Positions 14,832 through 21,224 of a stretch of 64,000 nt of DNA are shown piece after piece (position 1 is the first letter of the stretch; each line of letters opens with the position of its first letter). The notes beneath the pieces were generated by a model. The model did no database searches, was not told the DNA's origin, and saw only the letters and a program-made list of their open reading frames with translations. The DNA comes from Planctomycetia bacterium (GTDB lineage Bacteria; Planctomycetota; Planctomycetia; Gemmatales; Gemmataceae). The position numbers were made by a program, and so were the translations under genes. The stretch is from contig SXID01000216.1 in assembly GCA_005772955.1 (NCBI GenBank), positions 1-64,000 on the forward strand, written 5' to 3'.

Positions 14832-14860
14832 GTCCCATTCGGAAAGTGCGTAGTCCCTCA

Positions 14861-14920
14861 ACGATCCGCGACCGCGAGGGAGCGGTTGACGTTGGCCACT
14901 CCCTTGCGGTCGCGGCTCGT
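14861..14920. repeat. Inverted repeat, family with 19024-19084
   Basis: Arms 14861-14884 and 14897-14920 match at 21 of 24 positions. The whole element is homologous, in the opposite orientation, to the palindrome at 19024-19084: both contain CCGCGACCGC and GGGAGCGGTT-like centres. It lies between carbonic anhydrase and SulP, which are co-directional. Confidence 0.75.
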
Positions 14921-14950
14921 TTGTCCTCTGCAATCCAGGACGGTTGATTC

Positions 14951-16918: not shown

Positions 16919-18655
16919 ATGCCCGGTCCGACCGCACACGCTCTGACCTTCGACCCGACCAACCCGTTCTTCGTCCAGCCGGACCGAACGGTGATGGTCG
17001 AGGTGGATAACCCGAAGTACACGGAAGCACGCGACGCGCTCGCGCCATTCGCGGAGCTGGAAAAAAGCCCCGAACACATCCACACGTACCGCATCTCGAA
17101 CCTCTCGCTCTGGAACGCCGCCGCCGCGGGGTTCAGCGCGGATGAGGTCGTGGCTGTGCTCCAGCGGTACACGAAGTTCCCGATCCCGCAGAACATCCCG
17201 ACCGATATCGCGGAGACGGTCGCGCGTTACGGCCGCGTCAAACTCGAACGCATCGACGCCGACCACCTGAAGCTCGTGTGTTCCGATAAACCGCTGCTTG
17301 CTGAACTCGCCCGCAACAAGAAGGTGAAAGAGTACCTCGGCGAAAAGCTCGACAACACGAGTTTCGCGGTCACCCCGGCGTTCCGCGGCGTGCTGAAACA
17401 GGTGCTCATCACGGTCGGCTACCCGGCGGAGGACATCGCCGGTTACACCGAGGGCGCGCTGCTGCCGATCGCACTTCGCGACACGCTGGCAACGGGCGGG
17501 CAGCCCTTCCACATTCGCGACTACCAGCGCGAAGCGGCAGACGTGTTCCACGCGGGCGGCGACGTGCGCGGCGGCAGCGGCGTGATCGTGTTGCCGTGCG
17601 GCGCGGGCAAGACCATCGTCGGCATCGTGGCCATGTCGCTCCTACAGAAGAACACGCTGATTCTCACCACCAGCATCACCGCCGTGAAACAGTGGCGGCG
17701 CGAGATCATCGACAAATCGACGCTGACCGAAACTGAGGTGAAAGAATACACCGGCGAGACGAAGGAAATCGGCCCGGTGACGATCGCGACCTACCAGATT
17801 CTCACGTATCGCCCGGACAAGACCGAAGACTTCCCGCACTTCGGGCTGTTCGAGCAGCGCGATTGGGGCCTGATCATCTACGACGAAGTTCACTTGCTGC
17901 CGGCCCCAGTGTTCCGCGTAACGGCACAGATTCAGGCACGCCGACGCTTGGGGCTCACCGCCACGCTCATCCGCGAAGACGGGCGCGAAGGCGACGTGTT
18001 CTCGCTGATCGGTCCGAAGAAGTACGACGTGCCGTGGCGCGAGTTGGAAACGAAGGGCTGGATCGCGAGCGCGAGTTGCAGCGAAATTCGCGTGGCACTG
18101 CCGACCGACGCGACCCGCATGGAGTACGCGGTCGCCGATCACCGTGCGAAGTACCGTATCGCGAGCGAGAACGTCGCGAAGGACGACGTGGTTGCTGAAT
18201 TACTGTCGCGCTACAAGGATCAGCGAGTCATCGTGATCGGGCAGTATCTGTCGCAACTGCACCGGCTCGCGGAGCGGTTCGACTTGCCGCTCATCACCGG
18301 CAGCACCGTGACTTCGGAGCGTGAAGACCTTTACAACAAGTTCCGCGCCGGAGAGGTTCGCCATCTCGTGCTATCGAAAGTCGGGAACTTCGCGATCGAC
18401 CTACCGGACGCGAACGTGCTGATCCAGGTGAGCGGCACCTTCGGTTCGCGTCAGGAAGAAGCGCAGCGGTTGGGCCGCATCTTGCGCCCGAAGAGCAGCG
18501 GCGACGGAGACGCGCACTTCTTCACGCTGGTGTCGCGCGACACGCGCGAACTCGACTTCGCGCACCACCGCCAGATGTTCCTGACGGAGCAGGGCTACAG
18601 CTACGAGATCCTCGACGAGCGCGACGTGCTCCCGCCGAAGTCCGCCGCGGGGTGA
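16919..18655 (+). CDS. XPB/Ssl2-type DNA repair helicase (SF2)
   Basis: An SF2 DNA helicase of the XPB family. From the ATG at 16919 (GGGAG five bases upstream) it has 578 residues; ATG at 16883 is the alternative start. Walker A GAGKT is at 228-232 and Walker B DEVH at 322-325. LGLTATLIREDGR carries the RED motif (Arg352-Glu353-Asp354) diagnostic of XPB. Motif VI QRLGRILRPK begins at Gln516. The N-terminal ~180 residues match the damage-recognition/N-terminal part of XPB. In eukaryotes XPB opens DNA in nucleotide excision repair and transcription; bacterial members are biochemically DNA helicases or translocases. A helicase-associated partner lies 0.5 kb downstream. Confidence 0.92.
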   Translation: MPGPTAHALTFDPTNPFFVQPDRTVMVEVDNPKYTEARDALAPFAELEKSPEHIHTYRISNLSLWNAAAAGFSADEVVAVLQRYTKFPIPQNIPTDIAETVARYGRVKLERIDADHLKLVCSDKPLLAELARNKKVKEYLGEKLDNTSFAVTPAFRGVLKQVLITVGYPAEDIAGYTEGALLPIALRDTLATGGQPFHIRDYQREAADVFHAGGDVRGGSGVIVLPCGAGKTIVGIVAMSLLQKNTLILTTSITAVKQWRREIIDKSTLTETEVKEYTGETKEIGPVTIATYQILTYRPDKTEDFPHFGLFEQRDWGLIIYDEVHLLPAPVFRVTAQIQARRRLGLTATLIREDGREGDVFSLIGPKKYDVPWRELETKGWIASASCSEIRVALPTDATRMEYAVADHRAKYRIASENVAKDDVVAELLSRYKDQRVIVIGQYLSQLHRLAERFDLPLITGSTVTSEREDLYNKFRAGEVRHLVLSKVGNFAIDLPDANVLIQVSGTFGSRQEEAQRLGRILRPKSSGDGDAHFFTLVSRDTRELDFAHHRQMFLTEQGYSYEILDERDVLPPKSAAG

Positions 18656-18665
18656 GCGATGTCTT

Positions 18666-18785
18666 GCGGCCTGAAGGCCACGCTCCCTCAGCCCAGACCA
18701 CTGGCCTGCGACGAGTGTTTCCGAATCCATCGAACCGTATACCCAGGCCGGTGCCTGGGCTGAGGGAGCGCGGCCTTCAGGCCGC
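18666..18785. repeat. Inverted repeat, 30-bp arms
   Basis: Arms 18666-18695 and 18756-18785 match at 29 of 30 positions with a 60-bp spacer, and an inner CCCAGGC/GCCTGGG hairpin sits at about 18742-18759. The right arm ends one base before the ATG of the 77-residue gene at 18787, so any ribosome binding site for it is inside the palindrome. Confidence 0.85.
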
Positions 18786-18786
18786 A

Positions 18787-19020
18787 ATGAACGTGACCAA
18801 CCCCACCGCTCGCCTTCCGGCCAAGTTGCACCGCCGCGTGTGCCTCGTTCTCACGGAGGACGCGGTGCTCGCGGAAGAACTACTCGCGCGCAAGAAGCTC
18901 GCGTCGGAGGTCGCCGGGCGGCTGTCCGAGAAGGTGCTGCTCATCCGCCCCGGACGGCTCGACGCGGTCCTCGACGAACTCCGCAAGATGGGCCACACGC
19001 CGCAAGTGGTCGGGAAGTAG
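18787..19020 (+). CDS. Small conserved protein between XPB and its partner
   Basis: A 77-residue basic protein with no recognised domain. The middle (LTEDAVLAEELLARKKLASE) is predicted helical, and RPGRLDAVLDELRKMGHTP suggests a compact helix-strand-helix fold. The ATG at 18787 is chosen because upstream in-frame codons lie in the palindrome at 18666-18785. It sits between the XPB helicase and the XPB/Ssl2-like protein on the same strand, so a role with them is plausible but unproven. Its last 26 bases are duplicated at 19089-19114 beyond another palindrome. Confidence 0.55.
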   Translation: MNVTNPTARLPAKLHRRVCLVLTEDAVLAEELLARKKLASEVAGRLSEKVLLIRPGRLDAVLDELRKMGHTPQVVGK

Positions 19021-19114
19021 ACCAACGAGCCGCGACCGCAAGGGAGCGGCCACGCTAACCGCTCCCTTGCGGTCACGGCTCGTTAGAAACACGCCGCAAG
19101 TGGTCGGGAAATAG
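18995..19114. repeat. 26-bp direct repeat flanking a palindrome
   Basis: 18995-19020 (the end of the 77-aa gene, including its TAG) recurs at 19089-19114 with 25 of 26 identical bases (G to A at the 23rd). The copies bracket the palindrome at 19024-19084. This looks like a target-site duplication made when the palindrome arrived, although a local tandem duplication is also possible. Confidence 0.85.
19024..19084. repeat. Inverted repeat bracketed by direct repeats
   Basis: Arms 19024-19049 and 19059-19084 match at 25 of 26 positions with a 9-bp loop. It belongs to the same family as 14861-14920 but in opposite orientation. It lies between the 77-aa gene and the helicase-associated gene. Confidence 0.85.
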
Positions 19115-19139
19115 CCGCGCGGAACACTACAACACCTCG

Positions 19140-21224
19140 ATGCCCGCGACCCCCGAAACAGACTGGTCTTCCCGCTGCCGCGACGCGCTCGCGCGCTACG
19201 CCGAACCGCTCCTGCGATCGGTCGGCGATAAGCTCGTGCGCCCGCGCTCGAAGCAACCCACCGACGAGTTGCTCGACAAGGCCGCCGCGATGATCACCAA
19301 CGCGCCGGTCATCGACCGGCGCATCAAGGAGCAACCGCCCGCGTCGCGGAAGTTGCTCGCGTTCATGGGCGTCAGCCGGCAACCGCGGTGGAAGGTCGGA
19401 CACCTCCTCACGCTGCTCGCGGCGCTCGACCACAACGACGGCTTCAGCCCGGTTCAAACGCTTCTCGAAACCGGATTGCTGTTCCCCGAACTCGACCCGC
19501 AACACCCGCCCATCGACAGCTTCGCAAGTTGGTTCGGCCTCGCGGGGACGCACAACGCGGTGGTCTTTGCGCACCCCGGCGTCGCGGCCCGCGCTCGCGG
19601 CGAAGATTTCGGTCTGCCGAACTTGGCGAGCGATGACACACACGCGACACCGCGAGCGGCGGATGGCTTCGAGTGGCCGCTGCGCCTCGCGGCCGTGTGG
19701 CAGCAGGTTCACGCAGACACGATGCGGCTCACACAGGGGAACACGCTATTCAAGCGCGACCTCGTCAGGCTTCAGTCGGACGCGGTGCTAGCCGCGCCAC
19801 CGGTCGATCAGCTCGCGTCCATTGCCGATGCCGGTGTGTTGGCGCTCTTGTGGGCGCGTGCCGTTGGCTTGCTCGGCGAACGCGACGGCACGCTCGAAGC
19901 CAGCACGTTCCCGACTGCGTGGGACGGCCCGCTGTTCGCGCTACTCGCGGAACTATTCGCCGCGATGCCGCTCGTGGAACCGTGGGATCCGCTCGCGGGG
20001 TACTCGCCTCCCGAGAACGGGCTGTCGCCCACGCCCACCGCGGGCTTGCTCGCGCTGCTGCTCGCGCGAGACTTCGTGCATCCCACTGCGGTCGCGGAGT
20101 GGCTGTGGTCGCATCACCCGTCGTGGGCCGGCGTGATTCCGACGACCGCGACCGACAAGGGCGCCGGCTGGGTTCGCGGGTACTTGCTCGGCGTCGCGTA
20201 CCCGCTCGGCGTGCTGGAAGTGTCTGGCGAACTGGTTCGGCTATCCACGTTCGGGCGGCACGTGCTGTTCGGTGAGAAAGAACCGCCCGCGCCGCCCGCG
20301 TTCCCGCAAACGCTGCTCGTTCAGCCGAACGCCGAAGTGCTCGCGTATCGACAAGGACTGACGCCCGCGCTGATTGCCGCGCTGTCGCGGTTCGCGGCGT
20401 GGAAAGGCATCGGCCCGGCGTGTACGCTCGAACTCACCCCGGAACAGACTTACCGCGGGCTTGAATCGGGTCTCACGCTGCCGATGATCGTGCAGACGCT
20501 CAACCGCCACGGTACGCGCCCGGTTCCGCCCGGCGTCGCCGATCTGCTTCAACGGTGGGCGAGCAAGCGCGAGCGCATCACCATCTTCTCGTCCGCGGTG
20601 CTGGTCGAGTTTCAAACGCCGGCCGAACTGGACCTGGCCGTCTCAAGGGGCGTGGTCGCGTTGCGGCTCACCGACCGCATTGGGATGACCGCGGACGGCG
20701 GCGAACCGTCGCTGTCGCACCTCCGGTTAATCGGTAACCGCGACTACGAATCGAAACCGCAACGGTGCCTCACGACCTCCGACGACGGCGTCACGCTCAC
20801 CGTCGATACGCCGCAAGCCGACCTGCTGTTGGAAGCGGAGATCGGGCTGTTCGCGGAACCGCTGCCCATCGACCAGAACGGCGGGCGGAAGTTCCGGCTC
20901 ACGCCAACTTCCCTTCGGCGAGCGATCGACAGCGGCAGACCGCTCGCGGACATCGACGGATGGTTTGCGGAGCGCAGCGGCGCACCGCTCTCGTCCGCTG
21001 GGCGTCTCCTGCTGCTCGGCGCGCAGATGCCACCGCCCCTAGCCGTGCGGTTGCTCGTCGTGAAGTTACCGACGGTGGAAATCGCGGATGGCGTGGCGCA
21101 GTGGCCGGGTACGCGTGCGCTCGTCGCGGAACGCCTCGGCCCGCTCGCGGTGAGCGTGAACGAAGAGCACTTTGAAGCGTTCCGCGACGCGCTGCGGGAA
21201 TTGGGTGTGAATGTAGTGGGGTAG
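19140..21224 (+). CDS. Helicase-associated protein (XPB/Ssl2-like, Helicase_C_3 domain)
   Basis: A 694-residue protein without helicase motifs. A segment at about residues 390-530 (FPQTLLVQPNAEVLAYRQ, LELTPEQTYRGLESGL, ITIFSSAVLVEFQT) matches the Helicase_C_3 / XPB-Ssl2-like N-terminal domain. In actinobacteria the same kind of protein is encoded beside the XPB helicase, and here too it follows XPB on the same strand. The N-terminal half is alpha-helical and leucine-rich. It is inferred to be the partner or loader of the helicase; no activity is known. The ATG at 19140 has no strong Shine-Dalgarno sequence. Confidence 0.78.
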   Translation: MPATPETDWSSRCRDALARYAEPLLRSVGDKLVRPRSKQPTDELLDKAAAMITNAPVIDRRIKEQPPASRKLLAFMGVSRQPRWKVGHLLTLLAALDHNDGFSPVQTLLETGLLFPELDPQHPPIDSFASWFGLAGTHNAVVFAHPGVAARARGEDFGLPNLASDDTHATPRAADGFEWPLRLAAVWQQVHADTMRLTQGNTLFKRDLVRLQSDAVLAAPPVDQLASIADAGVLALLWARAVGLLGERDGTLEASTFPTAWDGPLFALLAELFAAMPLVEPWDPLAGYSPPENGLSPTPTAGLLALLLARDFVHPTAVAEWLWSHHPSWAGVIPTTATDKGAGWVRGYLLGVAYPLGVLEVSGELVRLSTFGRHVLFGEKEPPAPPAFPQTLLVQPNAEVLAYRQGLTPALIAALSRFAAWKGIGPACTLELTPEQTYRGLESGLTLPMIVQTLNRHGTRPVPPGVADLLQRWASKRERITIFSSAVLVEFQTPAELDLAVSRGVVALRLTDRIGMTADGGEPSLSHLRLIGNRDYESKPQRCLTTSDDGVTLTVDTPQADLLLEAEIGLFAEPLPIDQNGGRKFRLTPTSLRRAIDSGRPLADIDGWFAERSGAPLSSAGRLLLLGAQMPPPLAVRLLVVKLPTVEIADGVAQWPGTRALVAERLGPLAVSVNEEHFEAFRDALRELGVNVVG

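Follow-up and report, generated by a model that had tools for sequence, protein, structure and literature searches.

The window analysed here, a stretch of 64,000 nucleotides, belongs to G000, a Gemmata-type genome available as a draft assembly of 278 contigs. It contains a gene for a 77-aa protein, orthologues of which are found in 87 of the 95 family genomes and which has no match in NCBIfam, followed on the same strand by a 694-aa gene (Table 1). The end of the 77-aa gene is followed by the spacer ACC, a 61-bp palindrome, the spacer AGAA, a second copy of the final 26 nt of the gene including its stop codon, 25 bp and the next start codon. A further palindrome at 18664-18787 (33-nt arms, 58-nt loop) occupies most of the gap between a helicase-like gene and the 77-aa gene.

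Table 1. Positions of the features discussed in the text (window coordinates, except for the transposase gene)
Feature	Position	Strand	Sequence or description	Basis
77-aa gene	18787..19020	+	supplies copy 1	ORF, orthologues
Direct repeat copy 1	18995..19020	+	ACACGCCGCAAGTGGTCGGGAAGTAG	pairwise comparison
REPIN-like palindrome	19024..19084	.	two inverted class-3 REP units, 9-nt loop	
REP unit 1	19025..19049	+	foot ACGA, hairpin GCCGC-GA-CC-GCAA-GG-GA-GCGG	scaffold search, DNA fold
REP unit 2, inverted	19059..19083	-	ACGAGCCGTGACCGCAAGGGAGCGG	scaffold search
Direct repeat copy 2	19089..19114	+	ACACGCCGCAAGTGGTCGGGAAATAG; non-coding, abuts the 25-bp gap before the next gene	
Remainder of the intergenic gap	19115..19139	+	25 bp, the length of the entire empty gap of relative G011	
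Downstream 694-aa gene	19140..21224	+	syntenic in relatives	
Second same-family palindrome in the window	14860..14921	.	without flanking duplication	
172-aa HUH Y1 transposase gene	G000:C89:2393-2911 (L009:970-1491, L157)		palindrome family on both sides	

The two copies of the direct repeat are identical at 25 of 26 positions and lie 94 bp apart from start to start. The sole mismatch, G/A at position 23 (GGGAAGTAG versus GGGAAATAG), falls in the non-coding copy. That the end of the gene recurs in this way and brackets the palindrome had been pointed out in an earlier note on this DNA and was confirmed: no other pair of 26-mers in the window reaches at least 25/26 identity at a spacing of 27-200 bp, and 20 first-order Markov shuffles of the window yielded none. 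The arms of the palindrome are 26 nt long and 96% complementary. In the predicted DNA fold of the unit, the foot AACGA is followed by GCCGC, GA, CC, the loop GCAA, GG, GA and GCGGC. The foot of the window unit is ACGA, unlike the published CnGA; this ACGA is the tag beside the unit hairpin, where GTAG or CGTC is absent.

The palindrome family and its flanks

In sequence searches, from which all family copy numbers in G000 derive, the family gave 88 matches counting both orientations, corresponding to about 44 places and at least 40 dispersed copies; within the genus, 17 of 19 genomes have it. Of 85 distinct copies collected with their flanks, one, the window copy, is bracketed by a direct repeat scoring above chance (score 22). 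The next-best score was 10, chance would bring 0.05 copies to a score of at least 11, and none of the other 84 family copies exceeded chance. The same holds for the 51 other strong palindromes of any family among the 52 compared in six genomic stretches. Since the 26-bp duplication is unique among 85 copies and 52 strong palindromes, it is not the insertion mode of the family. A family-wide target-site duplication was rejected on the grounds that the other 84 copies are without any and that 29 relatives lack the duplication at the gene end. The earlier note had also proposed a genome-wide search for further family members with flanking direct repeats; among the 85 copies collected, none apart from the window copy had them. 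Flanking repeats at most copies would be the mark of a MITE with a long target duplication.

Many family copies sit within other palindromes. A larger inverted-repeat element encloses 13 of 32 copies examined in G000 as its core; several of these are bordered by TA on either side, and in one the larger element is only partial at the left. This larger element, GAGCGC...GCGCTC, is about 125 bp long and surrounds about a dozen G000 cores (L010, L016, L086-L089 and others); some of these elements are organised in tandem arrays (contig C7, period 124). In G019, the core palindrome is nested in the loop of unrelated palindromes at L132, L203, L190 and L212. The tetranucleotide GTAG, present at the end of the 77-aa gene as AAG-TAG, was considered as an insertion target because the palindromes of several relatives start directly after it. 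It was discarded, as other copies seldom have it in their flanks and it is also a plain Lys-stop.

The intergenic gap in related genomes

The sequence following the stop codon of the 77-aa gene was compared in 29 relatives. In none of them is the gene's own last 26 nt repeated (best match 16/26). In G011 the stop codon is followed by just 25 bp up to the next start codon and the site is empty. Copy 2 of G000 together with the next 25 bp has the same layout as the stop plus 25 bp of G011, and therefore the gained part consists of the palindrome and one extra 26-mer. In ten relatives a strong palindrome (score of at least 17) begins 0-22 nt past the stop. One different palindrome is common to G024 and G025, another family occupies the gap of G009, G012 and G013, others are found in G026 and G090, and the gap of G010 holds a short hairpin resembling a REP unit. 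At three further G000 family sites (L007, L085 and L008) the orthologous gap holds a different palindrome. In the tree, G000 and G024 form a clade (support 0.86) with G025 outside. As G025 nevertheless shares the palindrome of G024, the element in G000 may have displaced an earlier palindrome instead of filling an empty site.

According to the earlier note, a relative with a single 26-mer and no palindrome would speak for insertion, and relatives with the palindrome but without the duplication would speak against it. The empty 25-bp gap of G011 agrees with the former, but relatives do bear palindromes without the 26-bp duplication, mostly of other families. Its suggestion that the palindrome is mobile is borne out by the dispersed family and the varying orthologous presence, whereas the 26-bp repeat does not hold up as a sign of mobility. 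Since a given short gap can hold palindromes of one family in one species and of another family in its relatives, palindrome turnover becomes measurable.

The syntenic pair G009/G010 (94% identical) differs in several gaps by whole palindromes. One of these differences is a clean insertion with TA duplication; in the others the entire gap is replaced. The clean insertion, a palindrome of about 45 bp in G010 versus G009 with TA duplication, lies inside GCTCGTTAACGAGC, at about 17449-17522 of the region joined from L069-L072. For the final 10-20 nt of the gap after the 77-aa gene (window 19115-19139 and relatives) there are two versions, ..CGCCATACAAC.. and ..GAACACTACAAC.., whose distribution disagrees with the gene tree. 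An acquisition of copy 2 by recombination with a donor species was considered as well, but a windowed comparison of the neighbouring genes gave no sign of a switch in identity. When the whole window was compared with five relatives, synteny did not extend past this gene group in most of them.

A class-3 transposase gene and its repeat unit

Elsewhere in G000, contig C89 encodes a protein of 172 aa that contains the motif THVHIVV; family palindromes flank its gene at distances of about 25 nt on the upstream and 13 nt on the downstream side. Homologues of the protein in G012 and G019 (70% and 73-74% identical) likewise have a family palindrome on both sides. The protein scores 21.9 bits against Pfam Y1_Tnp (cut-off 23), 24 bits, below the cut-off, against NCBIfam IS200, and 22.2 bits against NCBIfam REP_Tyr_transpos, short of the cut-off of 80. 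H90, H92, W129, Y150 and Q155 are invariant across 17 homologues; the W motif reads WS in the G000 protein and WT in the homologues. For L258, the closest homologue available for folding (73% identical), a structure was predicted with a pLDDT of 81, and its 30 best PDB matches are IS200/IS605-type transposases, including the RAYT 4er8. Judged by its sequence, the 172-aa protein fits class 3 of the TnpA-Y1 proteins with its HVH, W and Y----Q signatures, the class being delimited by an HUH motif, W[TA], Y----Q and a length of about 155-178 aa, and these features were found. In a 2018 survey of TnpA-Y1 systems, class 3 genes are described as REPtron-like and flanked by atypical hairpins of high copy number with the foot CnGA (PMC6006769). 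A class-3 gene flanked by atypical hairpins of high copy number is also what was found here.

The association was surveyed at 80 class-3 loci from named genomes (planctomycetes, acidobacteria and a few proteobacteria including Legionella). The unit GAGCCGCGACCGNNAGGGAG, with up to 2 mismatches, lies within 250 nt of 45 of the 80 class-3 genes, and a broad form near 52; control stretches about 1 kb away were devoid of it (0/71 and 0/62). In a scaffold search, just the G-A and GNNA positions plus the GAGCC and GG ends were fixed and pairing was not demanded. It recovered 132 units near class-3 genes, spread over 56 of 110 loci; farther than 700 nt from such genes there were none. The inner stem is complementary in 125 and the outer stem in 121 of the 132 units. 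The stem pairs also show compensatory changes on both sides, in rows that were picked from complementary matches and whose last base was supplied by hand, unpaired; because of this preselection, the scaffold stem count is the fairer test of pairing. Most units near class-3 genes have the foot CnGA, while G000 and some relatives have ACGA. The palindrome is also present without a close class-3 gene in several genomes (G010, G011, G024). At L101, L104, L105 and L106 in Gemmata relatives, canonical Y1 transposase genes are flanked by other repeat families, among them the GTAG-tagged GTAGCACAGGGC...GCCCTGTGC.

For the class-3 units we propose the hairpin consensus GCCn-GA-NN-GNNA-NN-GA-nGGC, which was not found in the main text of PMC6006769. 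This gives the class-3 DNA unit a testable hairpin definition of foot, tandem G-A mismatch pairs and GNNA loop; matching units recur next to class-3 genes of planctomycetes, acidobacteria and some proteobacteria. Since the units lie near many class-3 genes and are missing at about 1 kb, a putative mobility in trans of a REP/RAYT-like kind is well supported by association. The earlier note had called for movement in trans, either REP/RAYT-like or MITE-like. The former gains from an HUH transposase gene in the same genome that is flanked by the family; the latter, with a long target duplication, loses ground with one duplication in 85 copies.

Origin of the duplication and relation to known systems

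Taken together, we favour, with a probability of about 0.7, the explanation that the palindrome is a REPIN-like pair of class-3 REP units which the 172-aa enzyme probably mobilises in trans, and that the 26-bp repeat arose by one local duplication in this lineage, most likely through a template switch as the element arrived. The palindrome would then be a non-autonomous element whose two inverted REP units belong to a class-3 TnpA-Y1 REPtron. The transposase encoded on contig C89 would recognise the unit in its extruded, single-stranded form, a hairpin with a foot on the 5' side, the predicted single-stranded substrate being ACGAGCCGCGACCGCAAGGGAGCGGC. By analogy to IS200/IS605 and TnpA-REP, we infer that this enzyme moves these palindromes; it would bind the single-stranded hairpin and cut and rejoin at the foot, and the inverted pair would move without target duplication. 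The element would have arrived in the short gap past the 77-aa gene, which in close relatives mostly bears a palindrome of varying family. Because HUH Y1 movement is not expected to make a target duplication, the 26-bp repeat needs a separate cause. It would have arisen if synthesis had departed from the gene end, used the element as template and then resumed on the original template 26 bp further upstream. A hint of such re-entry comes from ACACGC, which 5 of 84 distinct right flanks, that of the window copy among them, contain in their first 14 nt (about 0.3 expected), in copies that may share descent. A donor copy with the tail AGAAACACG was not found in G000 at up to one mismatch, which counts against the template-switch step. 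The duplication is a one-off and rare by-product of minor importance, and not evidence on the mode of movement.

The 26-68-26 layout with its near-identical repeat, the empty gap of G011 and the location of the single mismatch in the non-coding copy would all suit a true target-site duplication, made by a long staggered cut during a MITE-type insertion of the 68-bp segment. A target duplication was one of the readings offered by the earlier note, next to a template switch; we regard it as very unlikely. HUH Y1 transposases (IS200/IS605) leave no target duplication, and it is this type of enzyme that is associated with the family; moreover, the other copies and strong palindromes are without repeats above chance, none of the 29 relatives has the repeat, and the clean palindrome insertion in the relative pair gave just a TA duplication. 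A plain tandem duplication of a 94-bp unit, which the note had named as the main alternative, does not fit, because it predicts 26-68-26-68, whereas 26-68-26 is observed. Unlikely too, if a good deal less so than a target-site duplication, are two unrelated events in either order, a 26-bp tandem duplication and the insertion of the element between its copies. Tandem duplications near family palindromes do occur elsewhere, as arrays at C7 and C139 and as a duplicated half element at C164, but two events are needed and a 26-bp tandem repeat was seen in none of the 29 relatives compared.

Palindromes are hard to assemble, and G000 is a draft genome in 278 contigs. An assembly error at the hairpin is nonetheless hardly to be expected, as the copies differ by one base, a run of N is absent and the other copies examined were assembled without such duplications. 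Finally, the palindromes of class-3 elements, or those of Gemmataceae generally, might spread and swap by template-switch copying at fixed intergenic slots, with the 26-68-26 arrangement as a rare by-product; we consider this broader version improbable. A single local template switch as the element arrived, with probable movement in trans, remains our preferred explanation of the locus.

Among known systems, MITEs with TA duplications (IS630-like) are likewise short, palindromic and non-coding, and about a dozen G000 copies lie within the larger inverted-repeat element, several of them TA-edged, but the core copies are without TA or any other duplication. IS200/IS605 elements share the predicted transposase fold and the hairpin ends; in contrast to them, the present 61-bp element is gene-free and the transposase gene lies outside the repeated unit. 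Closer are the REP/RAYT systems and REPINs of E. coli and Pseudomonas (PMC3116915, PMC8266576), which resemble the present family in their short hairpins, arranged as inverted pairs and scattered over extragenic sites, in elements inserted in or beside other palindromes, in an HUH Y1 gene flanked by its own repeats and, by analogy, in action in trans. They differ from it as class 2 systems, since the present unit is without a GTAG/CGTC tag and the enzyme reaches 22 bits against REP_Tyr_transpos at a cut-off of 80. The window palindrome is thus linked with a class of HUH enzymes that has been named but hardly studied, and it adds a new member to a kind of element that is already known but little studied. 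Compared with class 3 TnpA-Y1 as described in PMC6006769, the present foot is mostly ACGA, although most of the units found near class-3 genes carry CnGA, and the units are mainly inverted pairs. Shared are an HUH protein about 175 aa long that carries HVH, W[TSA] and Y----Q, the planctomycete and acidobacterial distribution, and the gene flanked by high-copy atypical hairpins.
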